Assembly: GCF_000746085.1 (NCBI RefSeq)
Contig: NZ_JQKO01000005.1
Span: forward strand, 1 to 64,000
Direction of reading: 5' to 3'
Source: Methylocapsa aurea
GTDB taxonomy: Bacteria; Pseudomonadota; Alphaproteobacteria; Rhizobiales; Beijerinckiaceae
Length of the DNA: 64,000 nt
In this document: positions 4,373-18,884 of the stretch, one piece after another
Layout: each line of letters starts with the position of its first letter
How positions within the stretch are numbered: the first letter of the stretch is position 1
The notes under the pieces: model-generated
Databases searched by the model: none
The model's input: the letters and a program-made list of their open reading frames with translations, nothing else
Told to the model about the DNA's origin: nothing
Translations under genes and position numbers: made by a program

Positions 4373-4487
4373 GGCATATTCCGAACAGATTGATTCAATC
4401 TGTTCAACGAGAATATGCTTAGATTCTTTAACACGGGAGCGATTTCTGATTGATCGAATGATTCCGTCTGATCGAGAAGCGCTCTAG
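4369..4487. repeat. Mosaic palindromic repeat (type B) between ligD and ku
   Basis: A 119-bp element running from CTAGGGCATATTCC to GCGCTCTAG. It contains two internal palindromes, AACAGATTGATTCAATCTGTT and a GATCGAATGATTCC-type hairpin. A close copy lies at 47826-47944. The left CTAG contains the TAG stop of ligD, and the right CTAG contains the TAG stop of the convergent second ku gene. It probably acts as a bidirectional terminator as well as an interspersed repeat. Confidence 0.85.
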
Positions 4488-5293
4488 CCGCCTTTCGCCG
4501 GTTTGCCATCGGATGAAATGCTCTTGCGCAGCGCCTCCATGATGTTGATGACATTGCTCGGCGCCGCCTCAAGTTCGGTCTTTGCTTTCGCTGGTCGCTT
4601 CCCGCCTTTCTTCTTTGCGGCGATGATCTCGAGAAGACGCGCCTGCACGGGATCGCTGACCATGTTCGGGCTCCACCGCTTGCTGCGCTCATCAATCAAA
4701 GCGGCGATAAGGCTCATCAGCTTCGGATCGATCTCGCCCTCTCCAATCTTTCCGAAATAATGGTTCGGATCGCGCACCTCATCGCCGTAGCGCAGGGTCC
4801 AAAGCACGATCCCCTTATCGCGCGGCTCCAGCATCACCGCGCGCTCGCGGCGGTAGAGCACGAGGCGAGACACGCCAACCATGCCGGTCGATTCCATCGC
4901 GTCGCGGATGACCGAGAAAGCCTCCTCGCCGACGGGATCGTCGGGGGTCAGATAATGGGGCTTGTCGCACCAGATCCAATCGATGCTGCCGACGGGAACG
5001 AACATCTCGATGTCGATCGTGCGGGCGCTTTCGAGCGCCACCGCATCAAGCTCATCCTCCTCCAAAAGAACGTAATCATCCTCGCCGCGAGGATAGCCCT
5101 TCGCCTCATCGTCCTTGTCGACAGGCTTGCCGCTCGCTGCATCGACAAATTGACTGACGACCCGGCGCCCGGTCTTCCGGTTGAGGGTAAGGAAGCGCAC
5201 CTTTTCAGCGTCAGTGGTCGCGGGCGCCATCGCGACCGGGCAGGTCACAAGGGAAAGCTTCAGGTAGCCTTTCCAAAATGCGCGCGACGCCAT
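4484..5293 (-). CDS. ku: Ku protein, second copy
   Basis: A second bacterial Ku of 269 aa, convergent with ku-ligD. The N-terminus MASRAFWKGYLKLSLVTCPV is the canonical family start. I therefore chose the ATG at 5293 rather than the start four codons upstream. The Ku core spans about residues 3-225 and ends in a short Lys-rich tail. It is clearly diverged from the first copy (for example CPVAMAPATTDAEKVRF against CPVALYAAASTSERIAF), so this is an old paralogue and not a recent duplication. The two proteins could form homo- or heterodimers. The stop codon falls in the mosaic repeat at 4369-4487. Confidence 0.93.
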   Translation of the reverse strand: MASRAFWKGYLKLSLVTCPVAMAPATTDAEKVRFLTLNRKTGRRVVSQFVDAASGKPVDKDDEAKGYPRGEDDYVLLEEDELDAVALESARTIDIEMFVPVGSIDWIWCDKPHYLTPDDPVGEEAFSVIRDAMESTGMVGVSRLVLYRRERAVMLEPRDKGIVLWTLRYGDEVRDPNHYFGKIGEGEIDPKLMSLIAALIDERSKRWSPNMVSDPVQARLLEIIAAKKKGGKRPAKAKTELEAAPSNVINIMEALRKSISSDGKPAKGG

Positions 5294-5391
5294 GTAACGC
5301 TCCAAAAGATGCGATTTGAGCTTGCCTGTCCCCCAGCAGAGCTCGACGGATACTCAGGCGCAATGCCGCCGCTCGACCGGCGCGCTTGAGA

Positions 5392-5703
5392 TTACTCCCG
5401 CACGAGGCGGTTCGTGTAATTCGGAATCCTGATCGACAAGTCCTGCGGAAGCGTTTCGATGACGCGGGTCCGCTTGCTCGGCCGCTCGCCTTCAAAAGCG
5501 ATGACATAAAGCGGCGCGCTGATCTCGCGCCCTGTCGCGGGGTCGCGCGCGTAAAGCAGGTCCGACGCCGCCACAAGGAAAGACTCGGCCTCGCCATGAC
5601 AGGAAACGACAAGATCGAAGAACCGCAGGTTCCGCTTTGCTGGCCGCAGGCTCCACTCCGCCGCAATGGCGCAATGATCGCAAAAGCAAATAAGTTTCCG
5701 CAT
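5392..5703 (-). CDS. Hypothetical small cytoplasmic protein
   Basis: A 103-aa protein starting MRKLICFCDHCAIAAEWSL. I chose the ATG at 5703 because an AGGGAG lies 9 bases upstream; the frame stays open for 50 more codons to 5853. No family is recognised. The N-terminus has a CFCDHC cluster that could bind metal, followed by a beta-rich region (FDLVVSCHGEAESF) and a C-terminus ending RIPNYTNRLVRE. It lies next to the second ku gene on the same strand, about 100 bases upstream, so it could be co-transcribed. That does not establish a repair role. Confidence 0.5.
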   Translation of the reverse strand: MRKLICFCDHCAIAAEWSLRPAKRNLRFFDLVVSCHGEAESFLVAASDLLYARDPATGREISAPLYVIAFEGERPSKRTRVIETLPQDLSIRIPNYTNRLVRE

Positions 5704-5931
5704 GCGCAAACGCTCCCTGTGCTCACGCCTGATCGCGTCCCCTGTGAACGCCCCCGCCGTAGAGGCGTTCCACCATGAGCCATGCATGAGCCATGGACCT
5801 CGCCGACGTCCAATGATCAGGAACAGCGCCCCAAGCCCGAGCGTCACTGTCATCTATAATTCATGTGCAACCTGCAAGATCGGCGGCGAATGAGTCTCTC
5901 CCATCTCCCAGTCGCGGCTCAGGCCGGGACG

Positions 5932-6037
5932 CTAGAGCATTTTCAAGCGAAGTGGAAACCGGTTCGCGTTAAGAAAATGCGACAAAACAAAGAGCTAGAG
6001 CTGCTTTCTGATTCCATCGGATCTGAAAGCACTCTAG
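5932..6037. repeat. Mosaic palindromic repeat (type A)
   Basis: An element bounded by CTAGAGCATTTTCAAGCGAA at the left and GAAAGCACTCTAG at the right. The core contains CCGGTTCGCGTTAAGAAAAT and ACAAAACAAAGAGCTAGAG. It is nearly identical to 23931-24034 and recurs in inverted orientation at 19168-19268, 28775-28834 and 50999-51100. It occupies part of the 368-base gap 5704-6071, where I see no other gene; the remainder is likely promoter sequence for the oxygenase-like gene. Confidence 0.85.
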
Positions 6038-6071
6038 AATTGGGAAATGAAGGGGCAATGGCGGATCATTT

Positions 6072-6692
6072 ATGAATCAAGTTGTGGGACTATTTCCGAC
6101 CCCGATAATGCGCGTAGAGCGCCTGTTGGGGGAAGATTTAATCCGCCATTTGGTCCCTGAGGTCACCGCCTCCCGCACCATCGCCAACGCAAAATCCGAC
6201 AGGCTTTCCCATACCGAGATCATGAGCCCGCGGTCGAAAGCCTCGTTTGTCGAAGCGAGCGCGTTGATCAATCCCAAGCTCGTTGAATTCGGGGCGCTGC
6301 TCTTCGGCGAGAACCTCGACTGGTCGATCAAGGAGATCTGGGTCAACTTTCTGGAGACCGGCGGGAGCCAGTCGATCCACAACCACGCCAATAGTTTCGT
6401 CTCGGGCGTGCTCTACCTGACGCCGTCACACCCCTCGGCGAACATTGTCTTCCACAAGAGCCTCGGCGGCGCAGATTTCGCCTTTAAGAACCAGAACGAG
6501 AATGTGCGGTTCGGGCCGTATAATGGCGGCAAATGGGCGATGCCGACGATCGCTGCGGGCGATCTTGTCCTCTTTCCCAGCTACCTGTTGCACGAGGTCC
6601 CGACAAATCGCGGCAATCAGCGCATCTCGGTCGCCTTCAATGCAATTCCCGCTCGGCTTGATTCGTTCGGCTACGCCATCAACCTTTCCTGA
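6072..6692 (+). CDS. 2OG-Fe(II) oxygenase-like protein (TIGR02466 type)
   Basis: A 206-aa protein resembling the TIGR02466 family of putative 2-oxoglutarate/Fe(II)-dependent oxygenases. It starts with the usual VVGLFPTPIMRVERL segment. The jelly-roll core carries an iron-site motif SIHNHANSFVSGVLYLT (HxH, residues about 102-104) and a distal LLHEVPTNRGNQRISVAFN segment, giving the third His and the Arg expected to bind 2-oxoglutarate. The substrate is unknown; family members are cytoplasmic and occur widely in alphaproteobacteria and marine bacteria. It lies just upstream of a CopC-like secreted protein on the same strand (66-base gap), so the two may be co-transcribed. Confidence 0.75.
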   Translation: MNQVVGLFPTPIMRVERLLGEDLIRHLVPEVTASRTIANAKSDRLSHTEIMSPRSKASFVEASALINPKLVEFGALLFGENLDWSIKEIWVNFLETGGSQSIHNHANSFVSGVLYLTPSHPSANIVFHKSLGGADFAFKNQNENVRFGPYNGGKWAMPTIAAGDLVLFPSYLLHEVPTNRGNQRISVAFNAIPARLDSFGYAINLS

Positions 6693-6758
6693 AAGCGCGA
6701 TCGCGACGGACCAGCGCCAACCGTCGGCTGTCCCGCTCAACGAAGATACGAGGAAAAA

Positions 6759-7253
6759 ATGAAGACGAGGAAGCAAGCATCGGCGGCTGTCCTGCTGCTC
6801 GGCGGGGTGCTGCTCGGCGCGCCGCAAGCGCTGGCGCAGGAAATGTATGACACATCCGTTCCGTTCCAGGGAGACGTCTTGAAAGAGGCGCCCGCGCCGA
6901 TGGTCATCAGCTTCGCTGAGGCGATCTATCTAACGAATCTTCGCCTTGTCGGCGCGGATGGCGAGGCGTGGCCGCTCGACTGGCGGAAGACCGAGGACGA
7001 CGTCTTCAAAGTCGAATTTCACGTTGCGAAGCCGCTGCCGCCGGGCAGCTACCAGATCGAGTGGACAGCTTATGTCCGCCAGCACTACCACCCTGACGGC
7101 GGCGTGATCGCCTTCACCATCGATCCGCAGGCCGCCCCTGGAGGCGCTCTCACGCCGGCGGCAACGCAGCCAACAGTCTCCGCGCCTCAGGCCGCGCCGG
7201 ATTCGCCCGATCCAGCGCTTCGAGCAGTCTCCGCGCCGCCGACGGATCGCTGA
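6759..7253 (+). CDS. Atypical CopC-domain periplasmic protein
   Basis: A 164-aa protein with a signal peptide (cleavage near ALAQ, residue 27), followed by a CopC-like beta-sandwich (PMVISFAEAIYLTNLRLVG ... LPPGSYQIEWTAYV ... GGVIAFTID). CopC proteins normally bind Cu(II) through the mature N-terminal His plus a DGH motif. This one starts QEMYDTS, has HYHPDGG in place of DGH, and has no N-terminal His. Copper binding is therefore uncertain, and other ligands (Met, His) may be used. The last 40 residues are a Pro/Ala-rich tail whose coding sequence overlaps the 3' end of the convergent gene by 104 bases. Confidence 0.7.
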   Translation: MKTRKQASAAVLLLGGVLLGAPQALAQEMYDTSVPFQGDVLKEAPAPMVISFAEAIYLTNLRLVGADGEAWPLDWRKTEDDVFKVEFHVAKPLPPGSYQIEWTAYVRQHYHPDGGVIAFTIDPQAAPGGALTPAATQPTVSAPQAAPDSPDPALRAVSAPPTDR

Positions 7254-9774
7254 GACCGAGCTGCCGGGCCATAGCGAGCACCGGGAGATAGGCCGCATCG
7301 AAATTGGCGCTCATCCGCACCACCTCGACGAGCTGCGGCCCGACGTCAGCGATGAAGCCCTGTGCATTGCCTGCAATCCGGGTCCGCACGCCGATCTCGA
7401 GGAAGCGGTCGCGGGCGCGCCAGTAGTCAGCGAGCCTTCGGAACGCGCCGGCATCCTCGCCCCGCAAGAGGGCGCTGGGTTGTGGATGAAAGGCGTCAAG
7501 CAGCGCCATCAGGCGGGCGCCGGGCGTGTCGCTTGCGACATAGGCGGCGCGCGGCGCCTGGGTCGTAACAAGCGGCCGGTCATCGCTGTTGAGCGGACCT
7601 GGCCCGGCGAACAAGCGCAATTCATCCGCGCTCGCGAGGTAGAGTCCAAATAGAGCCGTGTCGTCCCTCAAATCAAGCGCCGCCAGCCGGGCGCCCAGCG
7701 AACCGTCCTGGACGCGGCGGCTGAGCCAATCGACCGGGTAGGATTTCGGCGAGAGGCGGCCAACCAAAGCAACGAGCGGCGTCTCGATGCTGAATTGCGC
7801 GAGATATGCGCTAGAGTTGGGGAAGACCGCGAGGAAGGTTCGCAGGATGACGCGCAGCGTGTCAAGATCGAGCTGGTGGAGCGGGAGCCACTGACAAAAC
7901 AGCCCATCTTCCGCGAGCCGATCGCGGATCGCCGCGAAATGCTCTTGCGTGTAGAGCGCGCCTGAGCCATCGAGCGACGGATGGAAAAGGTCGGCCACGA
8001 CGACGTCGTAGCGATCGCCGGCGGCGCGAACGAAGCGGCGCGCATCGGCGACATGGACGCGCAGGTTCGCGTCGCGACCGAGATTGGGAGCCGACTGTCT
8101 GAACCACGGGAAGGACTCAACGACCTCAGGCACAAGCTCGACGCCATCCGCAATCACCCCAGGATGATCCCCCACAGCCGACAAAGTCGTGCCGGTGCCA
8201 AGCCCGAGGAAAAGCGCCCGCTTTGGGTTGGGATGGAGAAGCAGCGGAATGTGAGCCTCGCGAGCGTCGGACCGGATCGATGCGTCGCCGCCCATGCGGA
8301 AGTGGTTGTTGACCTGGAGATGATTCGCTCCGGCCTGATCCCGCACGACGCTGACGGCCGCCATCACGCCGTCGCGATGCCATAGGAGCGCGCCGCCCGG
8401 CGGCGTCTGGATAAAGCGCAGCGAGAGGGGCGAGAGCTGCAGCGCGATCGCCGCCGCAGCCGCTAAGGCGGCCAAAGCGCGCGTCCGCCCGCGGAAATTC
8501 GGCAGCGCCAGAAGATAGAACAGGGCGACCAAGGTGAAGCCGAATTTGGCGCCGATCAAGGGGAGCAGGAGCGGGCCAAAGAGGATTGGCGCGAGCGCGG
8601 CGCCTAATGTGTTGACCGCGAGCGCAGCGCCGAGCGCGCCAGCGCGATCGCGGACGCCTTGCGCCAGCTGGGCGAAGAGCGCGCCCATCGCAATGGTGGG
8701 CAGCAGGAAGGCGGCGCCAGCGACGCCGAATTCAGCGCCGAGCCGGCTGGCCATCGTCGGTGGCGCAAATCCCTGAAGCGCGGTCAGGATCGTCTCAGAG
8801 GAGGCGAGCGCCACGGCGCCGCCGACGCAGCAAAGCGAAGTCAGAAGGACCAAGCGAACCGTCAGCGCGTCACGATCATAGCGCTTGGCGAGCCGGCTCT
8901 GGAGCGCGCCGCCGCACGCCGTCCCGAGGAGGTAGACAGCTAACAGGATGGCGAAGGTGTAGATCGTGTTCTCAAGGATTTGGCTGACAACGCGAATCGT
9001 CAATACTTCGTAGCCGATGCCAAGGAGCCCCGTGAGGAAAAGCGGCGCCAACTGAGCCCGACCGGCAGCGGACCGCGGGTCTGCGGGGCGAGCCGCCGCC
9101 GACCCGCTGTGCGCCTGTCCCCCGCAAAGCCACATGGTTATGGCGCAGACCAGGTTGACGGCCGCGCACGCCATCAGCGTCGCTGTGAGCCCCAGGGCGG
9201 GAATGAGCAGAAAGATCGTTGCGAGCGCGCCAGCGACGGCGCCGAGCGTATTGGCGGCATAGACGATGCCGACCGCGCCGCCTCCGCACAGACGCGGGGC
9301 CAACACCGCCTCCAGCGTCGGCAAGGTCCCGCCCATCGCCAATGTGGCCGGCAACAGCAAAGCAAATGGCAAAGCGAAGGCGACAAGCCATTGCCGCGCC
9401 GGCGAAGCGTCGACCGGCGCGAGCGCGAGGGCAAGGTCGCCAGCAAGCGGCGCGAGGGGAATGAGGAGAACGGCCCAGGCGCCGATTGCGAGTTCCAGCC
9501 CAGCATACCAATACGCGGGCCGCGCCTTCATGTTGAACCACGGGGCGCCCAACGCCAGAGCGCCCAGCGCGAGCCCGGCGAAAAGGGCGGTCATGACGCC
9601 AAGCGCGGCGACGATCTCGTGTCCGAGCGAGACCGCAAGCAACCGAGTCCAGATGATCTCATACGCCAATCCGGCGAAACCAGACAGACCCGCGATGCCC
9701 ATGATCGATAGCGCGCCAAAGCGGTGCGCTTTTCGATCGACTCTGGCCATCGGCTCCGCAGCGACTTCAGTCAT
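7150..9774 (-). CDS. Membrane protein fused to spermidine-synthase-like domain
   Basis: An 874-aa fused transporter-like/spermidine-synthase-like protein. Residues about 20-440 hold roughly a dozen hydrophobic segments, beginning GLSGFAGLAYEIIWTRLLAV, the usual start of this family. Residues about 465-700 form a Rossmann methyltransferase-like fold with ALFLGLGTGTTLSAV and a DVVVADLFHPSLDGSGALY segment. The classical polyamine-synthase acceptor motif with DSTDP is absent, so polyamine synthesis is doubtful. The C-terminal 170 residues are helical. I chose the ATG at 9774 (MTEVAAEPMARV); the open frame extends further, but that part is only antisense to the PHP gene. The two minus-strand genes are likely one operon. 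Confidence 0.75.
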   Translation of the reverse strand: MTEVAAEPMARVDRKAHRFGALSIMGIAGLSGFAGLAYEIIWTRLLAVSLGHEIVAALGVMTALFAGLALGALALGAPWFNMKARPAYWYAGLELAIGAWAVLLIPLAPLAGDLALALAPVDASPARQWLVAFALPFALLLPATLAMGGTLPTLEAVLAPRLCGGGAVGIVYAANTLGAVAGALATIFLLIPALGLTATLMACAAVNLVCAITMWLCGGQAHSGSAAARPADPRSAAGRAQLAPLFLTGLLGIGYEVLTIRVVSQILENTIYTFAILLAVYLLGTACGGALQSRLAKRYDRDALTVRLVLLTSLCCVGGAVALASSETILTALQGFAPPTMASRLGAEFGVAGAAFLLPTIAMGALFAQLAQGVRDRAGALGAALAVNTLGAALAPILFGPLLLPLIGAKFGFTLVALFYLLALPNFRGRTRALAALAAAAAIALQLSPLSLRFIQTPPGGALLWHRDGVMAAVSVVRDQAGANHLQVNNHFRMGGDASIRSDAREAHIPLLLHPNPKRALFLGLGTGTTLSAVGDHPGVIADGVELVPEVVESFPWFRQSAPNLGRDANLRVHVADARRFVRAAGDRYDVVVADLFHPSLDGSGALYTQEHFAAIRDRLAEDGLFCQWLPLHQLDLDTLRVILRTFLAVFPNSSAYLAQFSIETPLVALVGRLSPKSYPVDWLSRRVQDGSLGARLAALDLRDDTALFGLYLASADELRLFAGPGPLNSDDRPLVTTQAPRAAYVASDTPGARLMALLDAFHPQPSALLRGEDAGAFRRLADYWRARDRFLEIGVRTRIAGNAQGFIADVGPQLVEVVRMSANFDAAYLPVLAMARQLGLSDPSAARRLLEALDRANPARPEARRLLAALPPA

Positions 9775-9881
9775 AATTGCGTCAAACAGTTTTTGCAGCC
9801 CATAACTGGAGGCGCATTCGCTTCCGGGGTGCGGAGAAAGAACAGGGGTGGGACCGCAATCGGCGCGGTCCCACCCATCGA

Positions 9882-11816
9882 CTATTTGGTGGCAAGTTGG
9901 TTGGCGAGGTCCTTGTTGGTCTCCACCAGCAGCTTCGGCTGATCGGACACCCGAATAAAGATCGGGTTGGTGTAGAACCACAGGTCCGCCCAAGCGGCGA
10001 CGTCGAAGCTCGAAAGCTTGGCGCCCCCACCCGTCGTCTGCATGTGCGCCGGGCAAGCAGGGTCCGTGCAGAGAATGACCGACGTCGCAGGATCGCTCAA
10101 CGGATTCCCCAATGCATCCGTCTCGTTGGGCGTCGCCACCGGAAGATTGGTGCCACGCGCGCGGATGTACTGGTTGCCCTGGATATTGGGGATAACGAAG
10201 CTCATCGTCCGCTTGTTGCCCGAAACCGTCCATTTCGCCGCGTTGAACGTCGCGTAGATCAAGGCCGACGGATTGGTTCCGTTGGTGTAGTTCGCGTTGT
10301 TCGGCGAAATGACGCCCGTGATATTACCGCGGATGAAGTCGACGTGGTCGAGCACCGGCTTGTTGAGCGGCTGCTGGATGCCGAGCTGCAACAGCGACGG
10401 GTTGTTGAACGCGTAGGGCGAGTTGTTCGGCTTGGACGGCGTCGTGACGGTGAGCGTGATCCGAACCGACTTCCCACGCGGCACCACCAGCGTCTCGCCC
10501 ATGCGGACCTGAGCGGTCTGTCCTTCGATCGCGGCAGTGAAGCCGAGGTCGCCCGTGATCAGATCGCCGGAGACCGAGAACGAGTTGCCGCTGCGGACCG
10601 CGTTGACGATCACCTGCGGCCGAAATAGCCCGTTCGTCGGCCGCAGTATGTACAGCTTTTGATATTCGCCCGGATAGAAGTCTTGAGTCGATTCGCGGAC
10701 ATAGGGGCTGAATGCGCCGCGGTTATGCCAATCCGAGCTAGCAAAGAAGAACCAATTGCGGCCTTCGCCGAGCAACGCATCCCATACCCCGCCGATCTTC
10801 GCGCCATAGATGCCCGTGCCGCCATAGGTCGTCACCCCGACCGAGTCAATGCCGGGTCCGCCAAAGTCCTTTCGGTACTCGCCGCGGTTGTTGCTTGCCT
10901 GATGGCCCGGCATCGTTTCGAATCCGACGGCGACAGTCGGACCTGCGTTGTTGAAGTCGCGGAAATGCTCGACGTTGAAGCCTCTATTGGCGTTAGGATC
11001 GAAAACGCCGGCGCGTTCGACATGCGCTGGCACATAATAGCTCTGCAAAGGGTAGTTCGCCTGCATCCAGGCGACGCTTGGCACCGCTTTGTTCTGGTGG
11101 TTCGCAAGGCCCAAGCCGGGCCCGGTCGCATTCGCAACCTTGCCCTTCCAGATGCCGCTATTAGCAACGCCTGGCGTGCCGCCGCTGCCGCTCGTGTCGG
11201 TATCGCTGCGGTCAAAGCGGAATTCGAATTGAGCGAGAGCGTCGTTATTGCCTATGTCGCCACGCAAGTAGTTCCATGGCCGCTGGGCTCCAAGGACCGT
11301 GGTGCTGGTGTGCTCATGGCCAGGCACGTTTGTCTCGAGCCCGACATAAAGCATTGGGTTTTGGAGTTGCTTAACCAGCGACGCCACCTCGGGATAGACA
11401 AATTCCTGAAGCATTTGCCAGCGCCACATCGCCCGATGCGGCAGCCCGTCCGGCGAGAACGATGTCGACGTGACGACGTCTCCCTTAAGGGCCGCGGCGC
11501 CGATCGTCTGTTCCCATAGCTTGCCGGAGCCGGTCTTCGAGCTGTCGCCCTCTGGATCGTCGAACCGGCAATCGCGCGTGCCGGTGCCGCCGTGGCCCGC
11601 CTGCGCCATCCACTCCAGGCCAAACGTATTGATCGACTTCGTAATCAAGGTCGAGACCGACACGGTGCCATCGGTGCAGGTCGTGTGGTTGTGGAAGTCG
11701 CCTGCCATGTAGCGGTCTGTGGCGTCGAGCGCCTTCGCCGGCGTCAACATCCCGATCGTCAATGCCAAAGTCGACGCATAGGTCAACAATCGCATGGATA
11801 AAGCCGTGTTTGGCAT
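9882..11816 (-). CDS. Secreted PHP-domain protein
   Basis: A 644-aa exported protein with a signal peptide at about residues 8-30 (LLTYASTLALTIGMLTPAKA). A polymerase-and-histidinol-phosphatase (PHP) fold follows. Metal-ligand candidates are GDFHNHTTCTDG (His42, His44), AQAGHGGTG near residue 76, and ASSDWHNRG in the second half, matching the closing Asp/His motif of PHP enzymes. Family members hydrolyse phosphoesters using two or three metals, but the substrate of secreted forms is unknown. The start at 11816 is supported by a GGGGAG 9 bases upstream. It is divergent from the PpiC-HupE operon across a 251-base region with a palindrome. Confidence 0.7.
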   Translation of the reverse strand: MPNTALSMRLLTYASTLALTIGMLTPAKALDATDRYMAGDFHNHTTCTDGTVSVSTLITKSINTFGLEWMAQAGHGGTGTRDCRFDDPEGDSSKTGSGKLWEQTIGAAALKGDVVTSTSFSPDGLPHRAMWRWQMLQEFVYPEVASLVKQLQNPMLYVGLETNVPGHEHTSTTVLGAQRPWNYLRGDIGNNDALAQFEFRFDRSDTDTSGSGGTPGVANSGIWKGKVANATGPGLGLANHQNKAVPSVAWMQANYPLQSYYVPAHVERAGVFDPNANRGFNVEHFRDFNNAGPTVAVGFETMPGHQASNNRGEYRKDFGGPGIDSVGVTTYGGTGIYGAKIGGVWDALLGEGRNWFFFASSDWHNRGAFSPYVRESTQDFYPGEYQKLYILRPTNGLFRPQVIVNAVRSGNSFSVSGDLITGDLGFTAAIEGQTAQVRMGETLVVPRGKSVRITLTVTTPSKPNNSPYAFNNPSLLQLGIQQPLNKPVLDHVDFIRGNITGVISPNNANYTNGTNPSALIYATFNAAKWTVSGNKRTMSFVIPNIQGNQYIRARGTNLPVATPNETDALGNPLSDPATSVILCTDPACPAHMQTTGGGAKLSSFDVAAWADLWFYTNPIFIRVSDQPKLLVETNKDLANQLATK

Positions 11817-11954
11817 TACTTTAGTCTCCCCTCCTGTAGAACCGAGGCCGCGACCTTAGTTGCCAATCGTGACAGGAAATACAACCACAGGTGATAGTTT
11901 AGCGACCCTTTTATGACATTCAGGCGCGACTGACGTTTGATTTTGCTTCCATGA

Positions 11955-11971
11955 ATGACATGCGCTGTCAT
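11955..11971. promoter_or_regulatory. Candidate operator palindrome in a divergent promoter
   Basis: A perfect inverted repeat, ATGACA-TGCGC-TGTCAT, lies in the 251-base region between the divergent PHP and PpiC-HupE genes. It is flanked by further TGACAT half-sites (about 11933-11940 and 11976-11982) and two CATGAATG repeats. This arrangement suits a dimeric regulator that could control both directions. The protein that binds is not known, and no regulator gene is adjacent. Confidence 0.4.
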
Positions 11972-12067
11972 GAATGTGACATCGTCAATCTATTACTAGG
12001 TGCGCAACCGAGACGTGCGGGCTGCATGATCGCGTCGACGCTTAGTAAAGTTGGCTAGGAATTTTTG

Positions 12068-12943
12068 ATGTCGCTGGGAGAAATGATCTCGTTTGCGGAA
12101 GGGGGGAGGACAGCGTCGATGCTGGCCGGAGCGCGCGGGCTGCTGCGGGCCGGGCTTCTAAAAGAGCCGCTGCTTCACTTCCTTTTGCTTGGATCGCTGA
12201 TTTTCGCAATCCATGCGGCCGTATCTCCGTCTGTGAGCAAGGACAAGCTCATCGAGGTCCCACCGGAGGTCCGCCAGTCGACCATCGAGCTTTTCGAGAG
12301 CACAAATCAGCGTAAGCCGACGTCGGAGGAACTGGCCCGCCTGCTTGATGTTTGGATCCTCAACGAGATCACTTACCGCGAGGCGCTCGCCCAGGGGCTG
12401 GACAAAGGCGACGAAATGATTCGGGAGCGCATCATGCAGAAGATGCGCCTTCTGGTCTTCGGCAACGTCACCGTGAACGAGCCCACCGAGGCCGAGCTCC
12501 GGCAATGGTTCGAGGCGCGGCGCGAAGGCTATGACATTCCCGATATCTTGAGCTTTTTTGAGCTTCCCATCGGCGGTCCAGAGGGCGAAGCCGAGGCAAA
12601 ATCGATCCTGCGACAGATCGAGGCCGGCGACGAGCCGGAGGAGGTTCGGCTTCGGGCACATATCTTTGCAAATCGACCCCGCAAGAGTCTCGAAGCGGCT
12701 TTTGGCAAGCCTTTCGTCGAGCAGCTCACGGCTTTGCCAATTGGGCGTTGGCATATGCTGCAATCTCCAGCCGGCTGGCACATCGTTCGCTTCGATTCAA
12801 TCGTGCCTGGACGAGCGGTCCCATTGCATGAAGTCGAGACGCAGGTCATCAGCGATTGGAAGGACGATCGTGGGCGCGCCCTCGGCACGGCCATCATTCG
12901 CGATATGGGAAAATCCTACGTGATCCGGCGCAACGAATCATGA
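12068..12943 (+). CDS. PpiC-type peptidyl-prolyl isomerase-like protein
   Basis: A 291-aa protein with an N-terminal membrane anchor at about residues 38-56 (FLLLGSLIFAIHAAVS). A SurA/PpiD-like helical region follows (LARLLDVWILNEITYREALA), then a C-terminal parvulin-like domain ending PIGRWHMLQSPAGWHIVRFD, the hallmark last strand of PPIC rotamases. It is probably periplasm-facing and helps fold exported partners, here most likely the neighbouring PHP or HupE proteins. ATG 12068 with AGGA upstream is preferred over the TTG three bases earlier. Its stop overlaps the next start (ATGA). Confidence 0.72.
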   Translation: MSLGEMISFAEGGRTASMLAGARGLLRAGLLKEPLLHFLLLGSLIFAIHAAVSPSVSKDKLIEVPPEVRQSTIELFESTNQRKPTSEELARLLDVWILNEITYREALAQGLDKGDEMIRERIMQKMRLLVFGNVTVNEPTEAELRQWFEARREGYDIPDILSFFELPIGGPEGEAEAKSILRQIEAGDEPEEVRLRAHIFANRPRKSLEAAFGKPFVEQLTALPIGRWHMLQSPAGWHIVRFDSIVPGRAVPLHEVETQVISDWKDDRGRALGTAIIRDMGKSYVIRRNES

Positions 12944-13926
12944 TCGGGTTCCTTCAAGGCCTCGGCGGGGGCCGCCGGCGGTTCATGCTGTTCGCCATGG
13001 CGGCGCTATCGGCCGCCTTCCTCGTCCCGGCGCGGCCGACATCGGCGCATGAGGCGAGTATGGCCGTGATGGTCCTGCGGGAAGTAGGTCCCGGCCGCTA
13101 TCTCGGACAGTGGTCGATGCCGCCGATCGACGAGCGGCTGCGTCCGATCTTTCCCGAGCACTGCGCATGGGACCCGCCCGAACTCGATTGCGGCGAACGC
13201 GGATTCGTCGGAACCCTCAGTTTCATGGGGCTCGGCAGCAAGCAGTCGGTCGCGATGTTTCGCGTGTTTCCCCTGGAGGGGCCCGCCCAGGCCTATACGG
13301 TCAGCGCCGCCAATCCCATCGTGACGGCGGCGCGCGACCCCGGTCGCGACATCGGGGCCTGGCTCAATCTTGCCGATACCTATGTCAATCTCGGCATCGA
13401 CCACATCCTGCGCGGGATCGACCATTTGCTTTTCGTGCTCGGCCTTATTTGGCTGGTGCGCGACCGGTGGATGCTGGTGCGCACCATCACCGCGTTCACC
13501 GTCGCGCACAGCCTGTCGCTCGCGGCGGCGACATTCGGCTGGGTCGGCGTTCCGGAAAGGCCGCTCAATGCTACAATTGCGCTCAGCATCGTCTTTGTCG
13601 GCGTTGAGATCGTGAAGTTGCAGCGCGGCCAGGTCGGTCTCGCGGCGCGCTACCCATGGGTGGTCGCATTCGCTTTCGGCCTTCTGCACGGTTTAGGCTT
13701 TGCGACCGCGCTGACCACTCTCGGGATCCCACAAACGACGCTGCCCTTCGCTTTGCTGTTCTTCAATATCGGGGTCGAGATCGGGCAACTCGCCTTCGTG
13801 TTCGTGGTGCTCGCGCTGATCTGGGCGCATCATCGGGTTGAGGCGACGCTGCCGCGCTGGGGCGCTGTGCTGCCGGCCTATGCGATCGGCAGCATCGCGG
13901 CCTTCTGGTTCCTGGTGCGGGTTTGA
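12940..13926 (+). CDS. HupE/UreJ family protein with extracytoplasmic N-domain
   Basis: A 328-aa protein with a signal peptide ending near TSAHEAS. An extracytoplasmic domain of about 120 residues contains two Cys (HCAWDPPELDCGER). A HupE/UreJ_2 membrane domain with about six segments follows. Conserved His/Asp motifs are GIDHILRGIDHLLF, HSLSLAAA and FGLLHGLGFATAL. HupE/UreJ proteins are linked to nickel or cobalt uptake in hydrogenase and urease clusters, but this long subclass is uncharacterised and no hydrogenase or urease gene is present. The start at 12940 overlaps the PpiC stop by 4 bases, indicating translational coupling. Confidence 0.75.
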   Translation: MIGFLQGLGGGRRRFMLFAMAALSAAFLVPARPTSAHEASMAVMVLREVGPGRYLGQWSMPPIDERLRPIFPEHCAWDPPELDCGERGFVGTLSFMGLGSKQSVAMFRVFPLEGPAQAYTVSAANPIVTAARDPGRDIGAWLNLADTYVNLGIDHILRGIDHLLFVLGLIWLVRDRWMLVRTITAFTVAHSLSLAAATFGWVGVPERPLNATIALSIVFVGVEIVKLQRGQVGLAARYPWVVAFAFGLLHGLGFATALTTLGIPQTTLPFALLFFNIGVEIGQLAFVFVVLALIWAHHRVEATLPRWGAVLPAYAIGSIAAFWFLVRV

Positions 13927-13952
13927 GACTTAGGGTCCGATTGGTGGGAGAT

Positions 13953-14561
13953 ATGATGAAGGACGCTCGGTTGAAGGCGACCGCCGCGCTTGGCGCGTTG
14001 CTCGCTCTGTTGACGCCGGCGCCAGCGCTCGCACATATTGGCGTGGCGCTTGGCCTGCAAAGCGGCATCCTCCACCCGATTACCGGGCTCGATCATGTCG
14101 CGGCCATGGTGGCGGTCGGCCTCTGGGGCGCCCAACTCGGCAATCCGGCGATCTGGGTGCTGCCTATTGCGTTTCCGCTGGTGATGGCGCTGGGCGGGCT
14201 CTTGGGCATGAGCGGCGTTGTTCTGGCGTTGCCTGAGGAGGCAGTCGCCCTCTCGGGCATCGTCCTCGGCGTCCTCGTCGCGTTGCACGCCCGGCCACAG
14301 CTCTGGATCGCCGCGGTGATTGTCAGCGTCTTTGCAGTTTTTCACGGCTATGCCCATGGCCGCGAATTGCCCTATGCCGCCGATCCGCTCGCCTTCGGCG
14401 TAGGCTTCGTTGTCGCCACAGGGCTTCTTCATCTCTGCGGCATTCTCATTGGCCTCCTGGTGCGCATGCCGCTCGGCGAGCGCGTTATTCGCGCCTGCGG
14501 CGCCGCGGTCGGCTGCGTTGGCGCCTATTTCCTTCTCGCCGCGTTGGGAGCAATCGGATGA
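13953..14561 (+). CDS. HupE/UreJ family protein (canonical short form)
   Basis: A 202-aa classical HupE/UreJ protein. It has a signal peptide ending TPAPALAH, with a mature N-terminal HIGVALG typical of the family, then about six membrane helices. The signature HPITGLDHVAAMVAVGLWG is intact, and a second motif HGYAHGRELP is present; their His/Asp residues are the proposed metal ligands. ATG 13953 or 13956 is chosen because GGGAG precedes it closely; a TTG at 13923 is possible but less likely. It is the third gene of the PpiC-HupE operon, and its stop overlaps the next start by 4 bases. Confidence 0.8.
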   Translation: MMKDARLKATAALGALLALLTPAPALAHIGVALGLQSGILHPITGLDHVAAMVAVGLWGAQLGNPAIWVLPIAFPLVMALGGLLGMSGVVLALPEEAVALSGIVLGVLVALHARPQLWIAAVIVSVFAVFHGYAHGRELPYAADPLAFGVGFVVATGLLHLCGILIGLLVRMPLGERVIRACGAAVGCVGAYFLLAALGAIG

Positions 14562-15175
14562 GAGCCATCGTCCGTCGCCTCGCGGCGACGTTCGCGCTCG
14601 TCGGCGCCCCGGCAAATGCGCATGCGCATCTCGTCAATACCCGGCTCGGTGATTTCTATGGCGGCATGCTCCATCCGCTCACCGGGTTCCAGGACCCCCT
14701 GCCCTGGCTGGCCCTCGCGATCCTTGCGGCCCTCCAAGGCCCGCGACGGGCGCGATGGCTGCTCGTGGCCTTCCCGGTCGGCCTGCTCGTCGGCGGCGGA
14801 CTGTCGCTCATCGCTCCGGGCGTTTCTTTCATTCCTCTCCTCGACGTGGCGCTCATCGCACTCATCGGCATGGCCGTTGCCGCCGCCGTTGTCATGCCCC
14901 TGCCAGCGGTGATTGGTCTTGGCGTCGTCATCGGGCTGGCGCACGGATACCAGAACGGACAGGCGATGACGGAATCGACGGATCACCTGCTGTTCATTTC
15001 CGGGGTGACCGCAATCGGATATGCGTCGATAACTATGGCGACCGCATGCGCCACCGCATTCCTACAGGGCAGCGGAAGCTGGCGCCTCTTGGCGTTGCGC
15101 GCGAGCGGCAGCTGGGTGGCGGCGGTGGGAATCATGGCGTTCGGACTGCAGTTCGTCGCGCCAGCAACGCATTAG
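14558..15175 (+). CDS. HupE/UreJ family protein with altered signature
   Basis: A 205-aa third HupE/UreJ-like membrane protein. It has a signal peptide ending ANAHAHLVNTRLG and about six membrane segments. The signature reads HPLTGFQDPLPWLALAILAA: the conserved Asp-His of HPxxGxDH has become Gln-Asp. The second motif is HGYQNGQAM instead of HGYAHG. Metal coordination therefore probably differs from that of the preceding paralogue. It starts with an ATGA overlap with the previous gene. Its TAG stop is part of the left TTAGAGC end of a mosaic repeat. Confidence 0.7.
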   Translation: MRAIVRRLAATFALVGAPANAHAHLVNTRLGDFYGGMLHPLTGFQDPLPWLALAILAALQGPRRARWLLVAFPVGLLVGGGLSLIAPGVSFIPLLDVALIALIGMAVAAAVVMPLPAVIGLGVVIGLAHGYQNGQAMTESTDHLLFISGVTAIGYASITMATACATAFLQGSGSWRLLALRASGSWVAAVGIMAFGLQFVAPATH

Positions 15176-15297
15176 AGCATGATGCCGAAAAGTGGAAACT
15201 GGTTTTCGGCATCATGCTCTAACTCTTCGATGAGAGGCGAATTTAAGACTTTGGACGAGATCGCGTTGCGATTCCGTCCAAAGTCATCCGGCTCTAG
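15172..15297. repeat. Mosaic palindromic repeat (type C)
   Basis: A 126-bp element with a perfect stem AGAGCATGATGCCGAAAA paired with TTTTCGGCATCATGCTCT. A second stem built on GACTTTGGACG and CGTCCAAAGTC follows, ending GGCTCTAG. A close copy lies at 28576-28708. It directly follows the HupE operon and can terminate it. The rest of the gap to 15472 shows no gene. Confidence 0.85.
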
Positions 15298-15472
15298 ACA
15301 ATTCGTTCGCGGAAGCCTCTCCCCCCATGCGCGGCGCCCGCCGACGCAAGACGCGGGATCATTGTTTCCGAGCGGCGCCTGCGGCCGAACCGCCAACTCG
15401 GCGAGATAAAGCGGAGCTGTGAAGCGACCGCGTCCTCTTGACGTTGGCGCTCCGATTTCCTTAAGCTCCGCC

Positions 15473-16021
15473 ATGCCGAGCAACGAAAAGGCCCTCGCCG
15501 CCCTCGCCGCTAACCCGTTTCCGCCGAGCCCCTGGGTGCAGGTTACCGATGACGGCGTCGTCATCAGAGCCGGCTTCAGCGATCAACTCCTGGCGCTGCT
15601 CCGCTGGGTGCCGAAAGTGCGTTGGCGGCCTGAAAAGCGCGACTGGATCGTTCCCTTGTCAGGCGCCGAAGCGGTCCGCGCGCTTCTGCCTGAGATTTTG
15701 CGGCTGGCTGAGGCGACCCAGCCGGGCGCGCGCGGAGCCTCCCCGCCAAATCCGAACTCGGAACCATCGCCGGCCGATCTCTTCCGGACATCCGCGCGGT
15801 TGATTTTCGGGGGAGACTGGCAGCGCGACACGGCGCGCGCCTTGAACCTGGACGAAACCGCGCTCGTCCGCTGGCTCGCCGGGGAGAGCGGCCTCGAAGA
15901 TCCCGAGGCGCTCCTCGACGAGATGCTGGCCCTGATGCGCCGGCGCGCCGCCGATATTGCGACCGAGGCGGACCGGCTCGCCGCCGCGATCGAGAAGGCG
16001 CGGCGGCGCGACCGCCCCTGA
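15473..16021 (+). CDS. Hypothetical protein with a HARP-like segment
   Basis: A 182-aa cytoplasmic protein of unknown function. Residues about 20-75 (VVIRAGFSDQLLALLRWVPK, then WRPEKRDWIVPL) resemble the short HARP-type fold, in which a strand-rich motif contains a conserved W-P-x-R-W. A Pro/Ser-rich linker follows, then a helical region with a helix-turn-helix look (TARALNLDETALVRWLAGES), and a basic helix at the end. The ATG at 15473 gives a compact protein; a GTG at 15419 would add 18 residues. The HARP resemblance is an impression only. DNA binding is plausible but unproven. Confidence 0.55.
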   Translation: MPSNEKALAALAANPFPPSPWVQVTDDGVVIRAGFSDQLLALLRWVPKVRWRPEKRDWIVPLSGAEAVRALLPEILRLAEATQPGARGASPPNPNSEPSPADLFRTSARLIFGGDWQRDTARALNLDETALVRWLAGESGLEDPEALLDEMLALMRRRAADIATEADRLAAAIEKARRRDRP

Positions 16022-16043
16022 CGGGTTTCGATCGGGCGGCCTC

Positions 16044-17645
16044 TTACTGGTCCGAAGGACGTTCAGCCTCCGGCTCTTTTGCCGGCTCCGAAGGGCTCCC
16101 CCCCTCCGAGTCTATTGCCGGTTCGGATGGCCTCAAAAGGTCGGGCTCCTTTGTCGGCTCCGGCTGGCTCGCGGCCTCTGGCGTTTTCGCCGCCTCGGGC
16201 GCCTTGGCGATGTCCTGCATCACCGGCGGCGGATTCCAGGCCCCAGTCAGCGCATCGCCCTTAGGGGCATAGAGCCGCATGGTCAGGTTGAACGGCCCTT
16301 TCGGCGCAGGCAGCCAGTTGGCCTCCTTGTCGGCGCCCGGACTTTCGTTCTGGAAATAAAGATCGAGCGATCCGTCGAGATTGGCCTTGAACGGCATCCA
16401 GCTGCTGAGGGCAAAGCGGTTGAGCGCATTTTCAACCTGGAAGCCCGCCTCATCATAGAGCGTGATCGACCAGAAGGCCTCCGCCGGCGGCGTCGCTCCC
16501 TTATCGAAATGGAGCGTGTATTTATGGGCGCCGTCGAGCGGTTTGCCGGTCTGGTCCGCCAGATTGATCGGGTAGATCGCATCCTCCGGCACATTCGCGC
16601 CGAGGCCCATCTGGGAGACGATCGCGCGCTTCAAATAGTAATTGCCGTAGACCCCCATCGTATCGGTGTTCATCGACCAGCCATTCGCAACCCTGGCAAG
16701 GGTCGCCATTTTCCACGCCATCAGTTTTTGCGCGTCCTGCGGCGCGCGGTCGAGGGCCTCGCGGATCGCAGGATCGAGCTTGCCGATGTCGAAGCTCTTG
16801 CCAGGCTCGATTCCGATGCGCTTCATCCGAGCGATGATCGGCTCATCCGTGATATGTGGCGGCTGCAGCTTCAGGAGTTCCGCCGCATAGGCGAAATACC
16901 GGCCAGCCGGCATCACATCGACCTGCAGCTTGGGCGGGGTCTTCATGTCGACGTTCGGATCGATTTTGACGACGGAGGGCAGCGGAGCCTTGCCCCAGCG
17001 CGACAGCGGCGTGACCTTGAATCCGGCCTGGATCTTGTGGACCGCGTCATAATCCTGCGGCCCATCCGTCTTGGTGCGGCCGATGATCCAAACATAGGGC
17101 GTCGGCGCATCGATGCGTTGCGTCTCTTTCGGAAGCTTGAACCTCTCGATCAGCTTGTCGCGGAGATCCGGACGCCAGCCCGGCGGCGTAATGATGAAGT
17201 GGCCGGCCTGGGTTCCCGTCGTGCGCCAGCCCGGCGAAGCAAAGACGTCCGTCCACATGTCGAGCATGGGCAAAAGATAATAGCGACCGCCGGTGTCCGG
17301 GACTGAGACGATCAAAGGCTCCTTGGTCAAGTCGAGCCAGGCGATGGAATAGAGCGTATCGAAATTGGGCCGCACCACCGATCTGAACTCGGCAGGCGGA
17401 AACTCGGGGACATTCACGAATGAATTCATCGGTCCGCGGCCCATTTCCTTGCCCGGCTCGATATTGGTGAGCTGCTTGCGGGTCAGATCCATCGTCACCA
17501 ATGGATAGAAATAGACATAGGCCTCGACGCCGATGGCGCGCGCCTCCTCTGCCGTCACAGGCGCCGCCAGCGGCGCCTCCGCCCTTGCGGCAGGCGCAAG
17601 GCTCAGGAGCAGGGTCATTGTCACCGCAATTGCTTTATAGGTCAT
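16044..17645 (-). CDS. DUF1254/DUF1214 exported protein
   Basis: A 533-aa exported protein with a signal peptide (cleavage near ARAEAP, residue 23). The DUF1254 domain is at about residues 35-170 (VEAYVYFYPLVTMDLTRKQL, VVRPNFDTLYSIAWLDL). The DUF1214 domain is at about 350-465 (FWSITLYDEAGFQVENALNR, NESPGADKEANWLPAPKGPF). The function of the family is unknown. The last 60 residues are a low-complexity Pro/Glu/Ala tail (repeats such as PEAAKTPEAASQPEPTKEP), which is unusual for the family. GGAG 6 bases before the ATG supports the start. It is convergent with the preceding gene. Confidence 0.85.
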   Translation of the reverse strand: MTYKAIAVTMTLLLSLAPAARAEAPLAAPVTAEEARAIGVEAYVYFYPLVTMDLTRKQLTNIEPGKEMGRGPMNSFVNVPEFPPAEFRSVVRPNFDTLYSIAWLDLTKEPLIVSVPDTGGRYYLLPMLDMWTDVFASPGWRTTGTQAGHFIITPPGWRPDLRDKLIERFKLPKETQRIDAPTPYVWIIGRTKTDGPQDYDAVHKIQAGFKVTPLSRWGKAPLPSVVKIDPNVDMKTPPKLQVDVMPAGRYFAYAAELLKLQPPHITDEPIIARMKRIGIEPGKSFDIGKLDPAIREALDRAPQDAQKLMAWKMATLARVANGWSMNTDTMGVYGNYYLKRAIVSQMGLGANVPEDAIYPINLADQTGKPLDGAHKYTLHFDKGATPPAEAFWSITLYDEAGFQVENALNRFALSSWMPFKANLDGSLDLYFQNESPGADKEANWLPAPKGPFNLTMRLYAPKGDALTGAWNPPPVMQDIAKAPEAAKTPEAASQPEPTKEPDLLRPSEPAIDSEGGSPSEPAKEPEAERPSDQ

Positions 17646-17939
17646 CGCAGACTCCAGAAGTCCAATGCATCGGATGAATCGCCGAGTTCATATCCAAAAT
17701 TGCGGCGCATTTGTCGAATGCAAAGCGCCGGCGCCGCTCAGTTGCTGTCCCGACTTGAGATCAAGCAACGCCCGCCGCCCAGCTTAAGCGCCATTTTTGA
17801 AAATTGGTCGCTGGCTTCAGAAGAAAAGTCTCGCGCCGCTCGGGGCTTCCGGGGAAAATCGTTGGGCGACCGTCCCTTCCGTGCTGCATTAGAGGGACGA
17901 CGAGCATGGTCCCCCAAACATCGCGGCGAGATCAAAGAT

Positions 17940-18884
17940 TTAGAGCCGAAAACTGAGAGACGCGAAGATCGCGTCCCCTTGCACCCGCTTTTCGGCGGCG
18001 AACTCATGAAACCACCGGCCGCTCAGCGTAAGTTCTTGGGCGTCCGCCTTGAAGGTATAGGAGAGCAATGGACCGATGGCCGCCACGCGCCCCCTATAAG
18101 GGCCGAGTGTGGCGGTGGGGCCGCCATCGTCGGTCACTTGCTGATAAAAATAACCGCCGACGCCAGCAGCGAGGCCAAATGGGAAGTGCTGATTGAGAGC
18201 CCACTCGAAGTGCAGCTCAGCGCCGCTCTGATAGTTCGTCGCCGCGTTGACCGTGTTGATCGTCAAGCCGAGCGCGGCGGAGGCCTCGAAGCCGGTCTGG
18301 AGGCTGAGGAAGGTATATGCCCCTTTGATGTCGATCGCGGGCCGATTCAAGCTCGTGAACGCGATTCTGTTGGGGTCATACGCGCCGCTCGGAATGAAGC
18401 CTATCAGGACCGCATTCCAATGATGCTCGCGCTCTTGCCAACCAATATAGGTGGCGACTTCGACATTTCCGATTGCGTTGACGGAGTCCGCCAAGGCCTG
18501 TTGGCGGAAACCCGATGGCCCCACGGTCGGAACCAAAGCTGTATTTCTAACCCCGCCAAAGGGCACGTTCACTCCGAACCCAAGCGAACCGCCCAGCACA
18601 TCGAGGTCCGTAACCCAATTGACGATAGCGCCGTTCGCGACAAAGTTGTAATTGACTTTCGTGGTGTCCTTATACCAGACGCCCGAGTATAGATAGAATA
18701 TATCAGTGAAATAGACGCCGGGCGGCGGCGTATACCCAGCCATCGGAATCGCGAGACCGAGAACATATTCGCTGAGCCCATACTCCACCGCCTGCGCGGG
18801 TTGGACGGCGGCGGCGCTCGCAAGCCATAGCATGGCGGCTGCGCTCCGGGACTTACGCCAAACCGACTTGCGCCAATGCCCCAT
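17940..18884 (-). CDS. SphA-like outer-membrane transporter protein
   Basis: A 314-aa protein resembling the SphA / phenol-degradation meta-pathway outer-membrane family. The signal peptide ends near QPAQAVEYG. Amphipathic beta-strands follow and finish in a C-terminal aromatic residue pattern (IFASLSFRL) typical of outer-membrane barrels. Internal features include GFIPSGAYDPNR, GADLHFEW-like strands and TFKADAQELTLSGRWFHEF near the end. Members are thought to take up hydrophobic substrates. No catabolic operon adjoins it, so the substrate cannot be inferred. The 294 bases upstream of the DUF1254 gene and downstream of this one show nothing notable. Confidence 0.75.
   Translation of the reverse strand: MGHWRKSVWRKSRSAAAMLWLASAAAVQPAQAVEYGLSEYVLGLAIPMAGYTPPPGVYFTDIFYLYSGVWYKDTTKVNYNFVANGAIVNWVTDLDVLGGSLGFGVNVPFGGVRNTALVPTVGPSGFRQQALADSVNAIGNVEVATYIGWQEREHHWNAVLIGFIPSGAYDPNRIAFTSLNRPAIDIKGAYTFLSLQTGFEASAALGLTINTVNAATNYQSGAELHFEWALNQHFPFGLAAGVGGYFYQQVTDDGGPTATLGPYRGRVAAIGPLLSYTFKADAQELTLSGRWFHEFAAEKRVQGDAIFASLSFRL

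Follow-up and report, generated by a model that had tools for sequence, protein, structure and literature searches.

The 64,000-nucleotide stretch of Methylocapsa aurea DNA analyzed here (contig NZ_JQKO01000005.1, positions 1 to 64,000, hereafter the window) contains, between positions 6072 and 15175, a group of genes built around a predicted exported metallohydrolase of the PHP fold. Genes for a PpiC-type protein and three HupE/UreJ-type permeases (HupE1 to HupE3) run divergently from the PHP gene. On the PHP strand lies a gene for a membrane protein in which a major facilitator superfamily (MFS) part is joined to a spermidine-synthase-like part (the fusion), and genes for a 2-oxoglutarate-Fe(II) (2OG) oxygenase and a CopC-like protein stand beside it (Table 1). 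All of these genes had been named in an original prediction made from the sequence alone, and Pfam and curated-profile scores agree with its family names. It also described ATGA overlaps within the PpiC-HupE operon, which is correct for two of the three junctions, PpiC/HupE1 (12940 to 12943) and HupE2/HupE3 (14558 to 14561). HupE1 and HupE2 meet instead in a TTGA overlap (13923 to 13926) or, if HupE2 starts at the ATG suggested by its homologues (13953 to 13956), across a gap of 26 to 29 bp. When called mechanically, the open reading frame (ORF) of PpiC begins at a TTG at 12065, and that of the fusion begins at 10233 and reaches into the PHP gene, the ATG at 9774 being its likelier start. The 3′ ends of the CopC-like and fusion genes overlap by about 100 bp.

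Table 1. Features of the PHP gene neighborhood in the window
Feature	Position	Strand	Basis and remarks
Weak Pho-box-like site	5847..5864	+	11/14 positions; begins 225 bp before the 2OG start; alone not significant
2OG-Fe(II) oxygenase	6072..6692	+	2OG-FeII_Oxy_5 PF13759, 76.6 bits; core module gene
CopC-like exported protein	6759..7253	+	CopC PF04234, 38.5 bits; lacks N-terminal His
Membrane MFS/spermidine-synthase-like fusion	7150..9774	-	NF037959, 91.0 against a cutoff of 40
Exported PHP-fold metallohydrolase with Ig-like C-terminal domain	9882..11816	-	Predicted structure and ligand pattern; signal peptide by eye
Predicted Pho box CTGTCAT-N4-GTGACAT	11965..11982	+	12/14 positions
PpiC-type protein	12068..12943	+	Rotamase_2 PF13145, 46.2 bits; hydrophobic anchor at about residues 31-58
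HupE1, HupE_UreJ_2 permease	12940..13926	+	PF13795, 165.6 bits; predicted mature N-terminal His; beta-rich outer domain, residues 41-130
HupE2, HupE/UreJ permease	13923..14561	+	PF04955, 181.7 bits; both metal motifs
HupE3, divergent HupE/UreJ protein	14558..15175	+	PF04955, 57.4 bits; lacks HX5DH and FHGxAHG

Analysis of other genomes showed that these genes are associated beyond chance. A scan of named genomes with the PHP alignment retained 80 of 187 relatives, which are mostly betaproteobacterial, with Steroidobacter, Methyloversatilis, and a Methylococcaceae metagenome-assembled genome (MAG) in addition; the closest are two Hyphomicrobium proteins at 76% identity. Among the 46 PHP loci whose flanks exceed 7 kb on each side (the other 35 of 81, with shorter flanks, were dropped), PpiC, HupE1 (PF13795), and the 2OG oxygenase were each present in all 46 and the fusion in 43, and these loci come from records titled alpha-, beta-, and gammaproteobacterial, many of the loci being mutually related. 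Across all 81 PHP-anchored loci, PpiC was found in 74, HupE1 in 71, 2OG in 71, and the fusion in 73 (absent from 7, 10, 10, and 8, respectively), and the seven that lack PpiC are all contigs between 4.2 and 9.5 kb long. By comparison, a PCu(A)C-like gene was found in 39 loci, a CopC-like gene in 3, and a TonB receptor gene in 11, and HupE2 and HupE3, present in 13 and 12 of the 81, are optional members. The co-occurrence that the original prediction had expected is found for PHP, PpiC, and HupE1, which stand together in 46 of 46 loci; that HupE2 and HupE3 are optional had escaped it. It had also placed the 2OG and fusion genes merely beside or divergent from the others; the positions are right, and both are module genes. 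Gene order and strand differ among loci, so the module is not one frozen segment. A good example is the plasmid of a Comamonadaceae isolate (locus L033), in which PHP, fusion, PpiC, HupE1, 2OG, and PCu(A)C-like genes all lie on one strand, with NikR and TonB receptor genes upstream. None of 10 distant PHP homologues has module partners. Of 149 genomes searched, namely the window's own and its relatives, only its own matched the PHP protein (0 of 14 congeners), which suggests lateral gain.

The window PHP protein matched no Pfam family, and neither it nor HupE1 had a sequence match to a solved structure. The fold match came from re-aligning Foldseek's candidates to the predicted model (predicted local distance difference test score [pLDDT], 75.5). 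The best matches were 2anu (Z = 14.4; root mean square deviation, 3.4; 209 residues aligned), 3e38 (14.3), 7rty (14.0), and 9etk (10.9), and the first unrelated match was far lower (5.8). On this model the protein has the PHP fold, followed by an Ig-like region at residues 416 to 626. It carries the pattern H42xH44, H75, E161, H265, and D362xH364, and in the PHP superfamily the residues of HxH ... H ... E ... H ... DxH act as metal ligands. H42 and H44 are conserved in 79 of 80 module members and the other five residues in 80 of 80. A second motif, C583-x4-C588-P-A-H591, is equally conserved in the module members (C583 and C588 in 79 of 80, H591 in 80 of 80) and occurs in none of the 10 distant homologues. 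The fold and ligand pattern are common to PHP-superfamily phosphoesterases such as TM0559, BVU_3505, and PsfC; the window protein differs from these in being exported and in having the Ig-like domain, the C-x4-C-P-A-H motif, and dedicated partners. DUF3604 as a name for the window protein was ruled out by the lack of a Pfam match, and its score against the CehA/McbA profile NF038032 was 39.1, below the cutoff of 80.

PpiC and HupE1 are closely linked. Their ORFs, called mechanically, overlap by 4 bp in 44 of 71 PHP-anchored and 26 of 33 PpiC-anchored pairs. HupE1 has three conserved features. First, the predicted mature protein, with cleavage placed by eye, starts with [A/S]HE in 69 of 72 cases (the exceptions are GHE in L105, AHD in L113, and a misread ORF in L108), and H37-E38 is invariant in the 41 aligned sequences. 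Second, HX5DH is present in 72 of 72. Third, an outer domain of about 100 residues carries two Cys that are invariant in all 41. HX5DH and FHGxAHG are nickel-permease motifs of the HupE/UreJ family; both occur in 14 of 14 HupE2 proteins and in 0 of 13 HupE3 proteins, despite the score of HupE3 against PF04955. Among the structural matches listed for the HupE1 outer domain was the zinc protein ZrgA (8ezw_C; Z = 6.4, 87 residues aligned, below the level that is safe alone), and the Ang-1 structure 9GCE was not among them. ZrgA is also reported as nearest to the Ang-1 domain, which binds Cu (74 nM) and Ni (220 nM) and for which metal capture and uptake by Ang-1-HupE/UreJ-2 are proposed (PMC12537917). 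These "anglerases" share with HupE1 the PF13795 permease and a predicted mature N-terminal His, and may share an outer beta-sandwich, with ZrgA among its solved matches. They differ in that the linker of RbAng-1a lies near residue 176, compared to an outer domain of about 100 residues in HupE1, and the neighbors given for them are DUF4198, IndA-like, PfkB, and unknown proteins; PHP, PpiC, DUF3604, and 2OG proteins are not named in section 8 of that paper. The characterized HupE of Rhizobium leguminosarum, as cited there, imports nickel to the cytoplasm (PMC12537917). HupE2 of the window is likewise a PF04955 protein with both motifs, although it has no adjoining hydrogenase gene, and HupE3 differs from the Rhizobium protein in lacking both motifs. 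HupE1-type genes also occur elsewhere: in the window's own genome, one paralogue without PpiC or PHP (G000:C18:22227-22802; L022, L161) lies about 20 kb from the pmoA-family gene on the same contig, and in the congener G299 the distance between pmoA and a TonB receptor gene with a HupE1-type gene (L166) is about 11 kb.

The PpiC-HupE1 pair has a second partner. A PpiC-anchored search of 385 genomes of the class found matches in 31 of them, including the window's own, and the strongest 34 of 45 non-own matches were taken as loci (the 11 weaker ones were left out). HupE1 stood beside PpiC in 33 of the 34, and a DUF3604 (PF12228) gene was present in 32. PHP, 2OG, fusion, and copper-chaperone-like genes were found in none of these loci, in which respect this cassette differs from the PHP module, as it does in that DUF3604 is a separate family from PHP. 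All 44 DUF3604 sequences show HxH, DH, E, H, and DxH; the profile comparison with PHP is weak (E = 3.5e-4, probability 37%) but collinear. Some of five N termini inspected by eye show signal-peptide or lipobox-like starts. Six more loci came from HupE1 matches in relatives: L162 and L165 are DUF3604-PpiC-HupE1 loci, L163 has the pair but no hydrolase match, and L161, L164 (at a contig end), and L166 have HupE1 without PpiC. Therefore, PpiC-HupE1 appears to be a cassette that serves exported metallohydrolases of the PHP type, the main argument being that two hydrolase families share one foldase/permease pair.

Further analysis of the intergenic regions pointed to control by the phosphate regulon. 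The Pho-box consensus consists of repeats spaced by 11 bp. The PHP-PpiC gap of the window holds CTGTCATGAATGTGACAT at 11965 to 11982, a site that starts 100 bp upstream of the PpiC ORF and 149 bp away from the start of PHP. Of 82 upstream regions of PHP genes, the 64 that had at least 350 bases and a start motif were compared. At least 11 of 14 Pho-box positions were matched in 18 of the 64, whereas 40 permuted motifs reached this level in 1.65 regions on average and in 5 at most. GTCA[T/C] pairs at exactly 11 bp were found in 22 of the 64, and no other spacing from 5 to 40 exceeded 3; such a pair was present in 7 of 640 control windows, a contrast whose Fisher value is inflated by kinship among the loci. 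In a motif-free test, GTCA at 11 bp topped all 4-mer repeats (25 of 64; the next had 19). In the window's own genome, the consensus with at most two mismatches gave 20 sites, compared to 1 for the reversed control, and the site in the PHP-PpiC gap is one of the 20. Others precede two of five PF12849 (PstS-type) genes, ppk, a CYTH-CHAD gene, and a Phosphoesterase-family gene, as well as a metallophosphoesterase and a phosphodiesterase gene identified by eye; in this list the ORFs were read by eye, except for Pfam-tested genes and the PF12849 genes, of which the remaining three have no site. Three of the 20 are one identical 18-mer (window 409-426, C17:68856, and C26:18009). The window itself has 4 sites at 11 of 14 positions against 1.91 expected, and a PhoD-type cluster lies near the module in 8 of 82 loci, one member being confirmed as PhoD. 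Together, these patterns predict Pho control of the module, a point absent from the original prediction. The identical 18-mers of the window contig (C4) and C17 sit within copies of one 175-residue gene and are probably a repeat rather than a regulatory site.

The fusion and the copper-chaperone-like proteins lack classical motifs of spermidine synthases and copper chaperones, respectively. Spermidine synthases carry DxxDP, in the form D-[SAG]-[ST]-D-P. The synthase domain of the fusion has a motif of its own, [D/E]xFHP, in 64 of 74 proteins, with D-x-F-H-P in the place of DxxDP in the window copy, and D-[SAG]-[ST]-D-P is present in none of the 74; its score against speE (TIGR00417) was 57.3 compared to a cutoff of 249.55. 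Polyamine synthesis by the fusion is thus weakened by the missing aminopropyltransferase motif. Four of four CopC-like proteins, that of the window included, have a predicted mature start of Q, not His (by eye), and the window protein scored 28.5 against NF033814 (cutoff, 95). The copper motif of PCu(A)C, H(M)X10MX21HXM, was found in 0 of 39 PCu(A)C-like proteins. Classical copper chaperoning is weakened by these missing motifs, and without the classical ligands copper is not established as the metal of either type of protein. The PCu(A)C-like proteins (L033, L039-L118) have HPW in 38 of 39 and RR within the first 60 residues in 32; the mature protein is predicted to start with HE(Y/F)(Y/F) in 12 and with C[EDQ][FYI] in 24. 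By sequence, a different metal site is possible in them.

We favor the interpretation that the module encodes an exported hydrolase that is under Pho control and has, unusually, a permease/foldase pair dedicated to it. In its full form, in which the module was acquired laterally and PHP is a Pho-controlled, exported phosphoesterase served by a foldase and a metal-handling permease of its own, this reading seems to us evenly poised between being correct and being mistaken. The hypothesis of the original prediction, that a secreted, metal-dependent PHP hydrolase is served by a foldase and metal permeases of its own, is partly supported, chiefly by co-occurrence (46 of 46 loci, and 32 of 34 for the DUF3604 pairing). 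In the proposed sequence of events, PhoB would bind the box at 11965 to 11982 and turn on PpiC-HupE1-HupE2-HupE3 and, divergently, PHP and the fusion. The PHP protein would then cross the inner membrane, probably unfolded via Sec, and the membrane-anchored PpiC would assist its folding. HupE1, whose outer domain is predicted to start with His, would handle the transition metal of PHP at the membrane. Within this scheme, the conservation of the genes, the PHP fold, and the metal-ligand patterns are established and Pho control is a prediction, whereas the phosphoesterase activity, the identity of the metal, and its hand-over to PHP are conjectural. The permease/foldase pair would be a maturation cassette accompanying either a PHP or a DUF3604 enzyme in the loci examined, and the 2OG oxygenase, the S-adenosylmethionine (SAM)-enzyme/MFS fusion, and the CopC or PCuAC-like protein, found only with the PHP version, would probably modify the enzyme, its product, or the metal. 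A broader proposal, that PpiC-HupE1 is a general metal-loading maturation machine for exported PHP-type hydrolases at the inner membrane, shared by two families and wired to the Pho regulon in its PHP version, where phosphate starvation would summon a new exported phosphoesterase and its metal supply together, is held more tentatively, as less likely than not.

Several observations weigh against the favored interpretation. First, by Foldseek alone neither the PHP model nor the HupE1 model reached a match at E ≤ 0.001, and CehA/McbA relatives hydrolyze carbamates. Second, the Pho signal is uneven. The second half-site of the window box is weak (5 of 7) and its pair is not a GTCAY pair, the 11-bp GTCAY pair is absent from 42 of the 64 PHP regions, and of the 20 sites in the window's own genome some are intragenic. 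Only 2 of 32 DUF3604-type upstream regions have the pair, a further difference between the two cassettes, so Pho control is not general to the cassette. Third, import of nickel to the cytoplasm by HupE does not by itself metallate a periplasmic enzyme. Finally, the 17 kb of L163 include PpiC-HupE1 but no match to PHP or DUF3604, and the NikR and TonB receptor genes of L033, the TonB receptors in 11 of 81 loci, and the urease genes beside L098 point to nickel uptake.

Metal uptake is the main rival because the HupE that has been studied is an importer and because TonB receptor, NikR, or urease genes adjoin a minority of copies. Here, a TonB receptor and HupE would take up Cu or Ni, and PHP would free the metal from an organic ligand, the destination being cytoplasmic enzymes or particulate methane monooxygenase (pMMO) rather than PHP. 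The binding of Cu and Ni by Ang-1 and nickel import by HupE (both in PMC12537917) are in line with this, as are L033 and L098, a TonB receptor next to DUF3604-PpiC-HupE1 in L140 and next to a lone HupE1 in L166, and the presence in the window's own genome of NiFe-hydrogenase genes and of a pmoA-family gene (PF02461), from which the organism is probably a methanotroph. However, NikR matched in only 1 of 86 loci searched, on which ground nickel regulation of the module was rejected. PpiC-HupE1 is almost always accompanied by a hydrolase (32 of 34), some HupE1-type genes have neither PpiC nor a hydrolase beside them (L161 and L166), 22 of 64 regions upstream of PHP have Pho-type repeats (no search for metal-regulator sites was made), and the hydrogenase genes are on other contigs. 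On balance, metal scavenging is unlikely to be what the module is for. A small-molecule pathway, in which the fusion and the 2OG oxygenase would make and export a compound such as a metal chelator that PHP and HupE process, would account for the presence of these two enzymes in 43 and 46 of the 46 full-flank loci and for the [D/E]xFHP motif of the synthase domain. We regard it as improbable: the genomes of L039, L040, L108, and L091 keep the rest but gave no match to the fusion (a search without a positive control), and both enzymes are absent from the 34 PpiC-anchored loci. Further biosynthesis genes may nevertheless be present among the recurring neighbors, which were annotated in part. That the HupE proteins merely feed the genome's hydrogenases and the other genes are there by chance is barely credible, as the same set recurs in 46 of 46 full-flank loci from alpha-, beta-, and gammaproteobacterial records, even though PF00374 has matches over the cutoff on contigs C17 and C20 and HupE2 has both nickel-permease motifs. 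The original prediction had argued that no hydrogenase or urease gene is present and that the HupE proteins must therefore serve another purpose. Within the window (C4:1-64000) PF00374 indeed had no match, and there was no urease among the window proteins tested by Pfam (10 + 20 proteins); the NiFe-hydrogenase genes on the other contigs make the conclusion too strong.

In searches of open-access PMC full texts, with results judged by title and the start of the abstract, no publication joining these genes was found. The term DUF3604 appeared in one paper of the search results. The parts are known families or folds, and these searches gave no published account of the combination or of its link to Pho. 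A connection between limitation by phosphorus and limitation by trace metals is commonly assumed, as secreted phosphatases need scarce metals. If the favored interpretation is true, the module would be a direct genetic link between the two, a hydrolase under phosphate control whose foldase and metal permeases are encoded alongside it. With its predicted phosphate-starvation control site, the module suggests an undescribed route of phosphorus acquisition. It would also assign a testable role to DUF3604, the PF13795 permeases, and the PHP family of the window, all three of which occur in many environmental proteobacteria, as well as to the 2OG oxygenase and the MFS/synthase fusion.

Other features were seen around the module, where recurring neighbors outside the core were annotated in part. 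A small exported protein recurs beside it in 27 PHP-anchored loci (for example, L061:12234-12833), one member having a PEP-CTERM motif by Pfam, and PHP has a lipoprotein-like protein of about 160 residues as a neighbor in L033 (11391-11897), where the copy has no Pfam match, and in 22 other loci. DUF1254, near the module in the window and in two DUF3604 loci, was rejected as a module part, being found in 0 of 81 PHP-anchored loci. The window has no tRNA gene, and no known RNA regulator reached the gathering threshold in window positions 5000 to 18000 or beside the module in six other loci. The one match there lies inside the urease gene of L098: in this betaproteobacterial MAG a urease alpha gene (by Pfam) stands next to the module at 3202-4908, with an antisense match within it to the Rfam 5′ ureB small RNA (88.5 bits). 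Convergent LigD and Ku genes (nonhomologous end joining) occupy window positions 1817-5305, directly before the module, and a separate 687-residue protein with a CopD domain is encoded at 26467-28530, about 11 kb beyond it. Finally, a palindromic repeat-like sequence directly follows HupE3 (15174-15219), and with a related-looking element at 5934, before the 2OG gene, it flanks the module.

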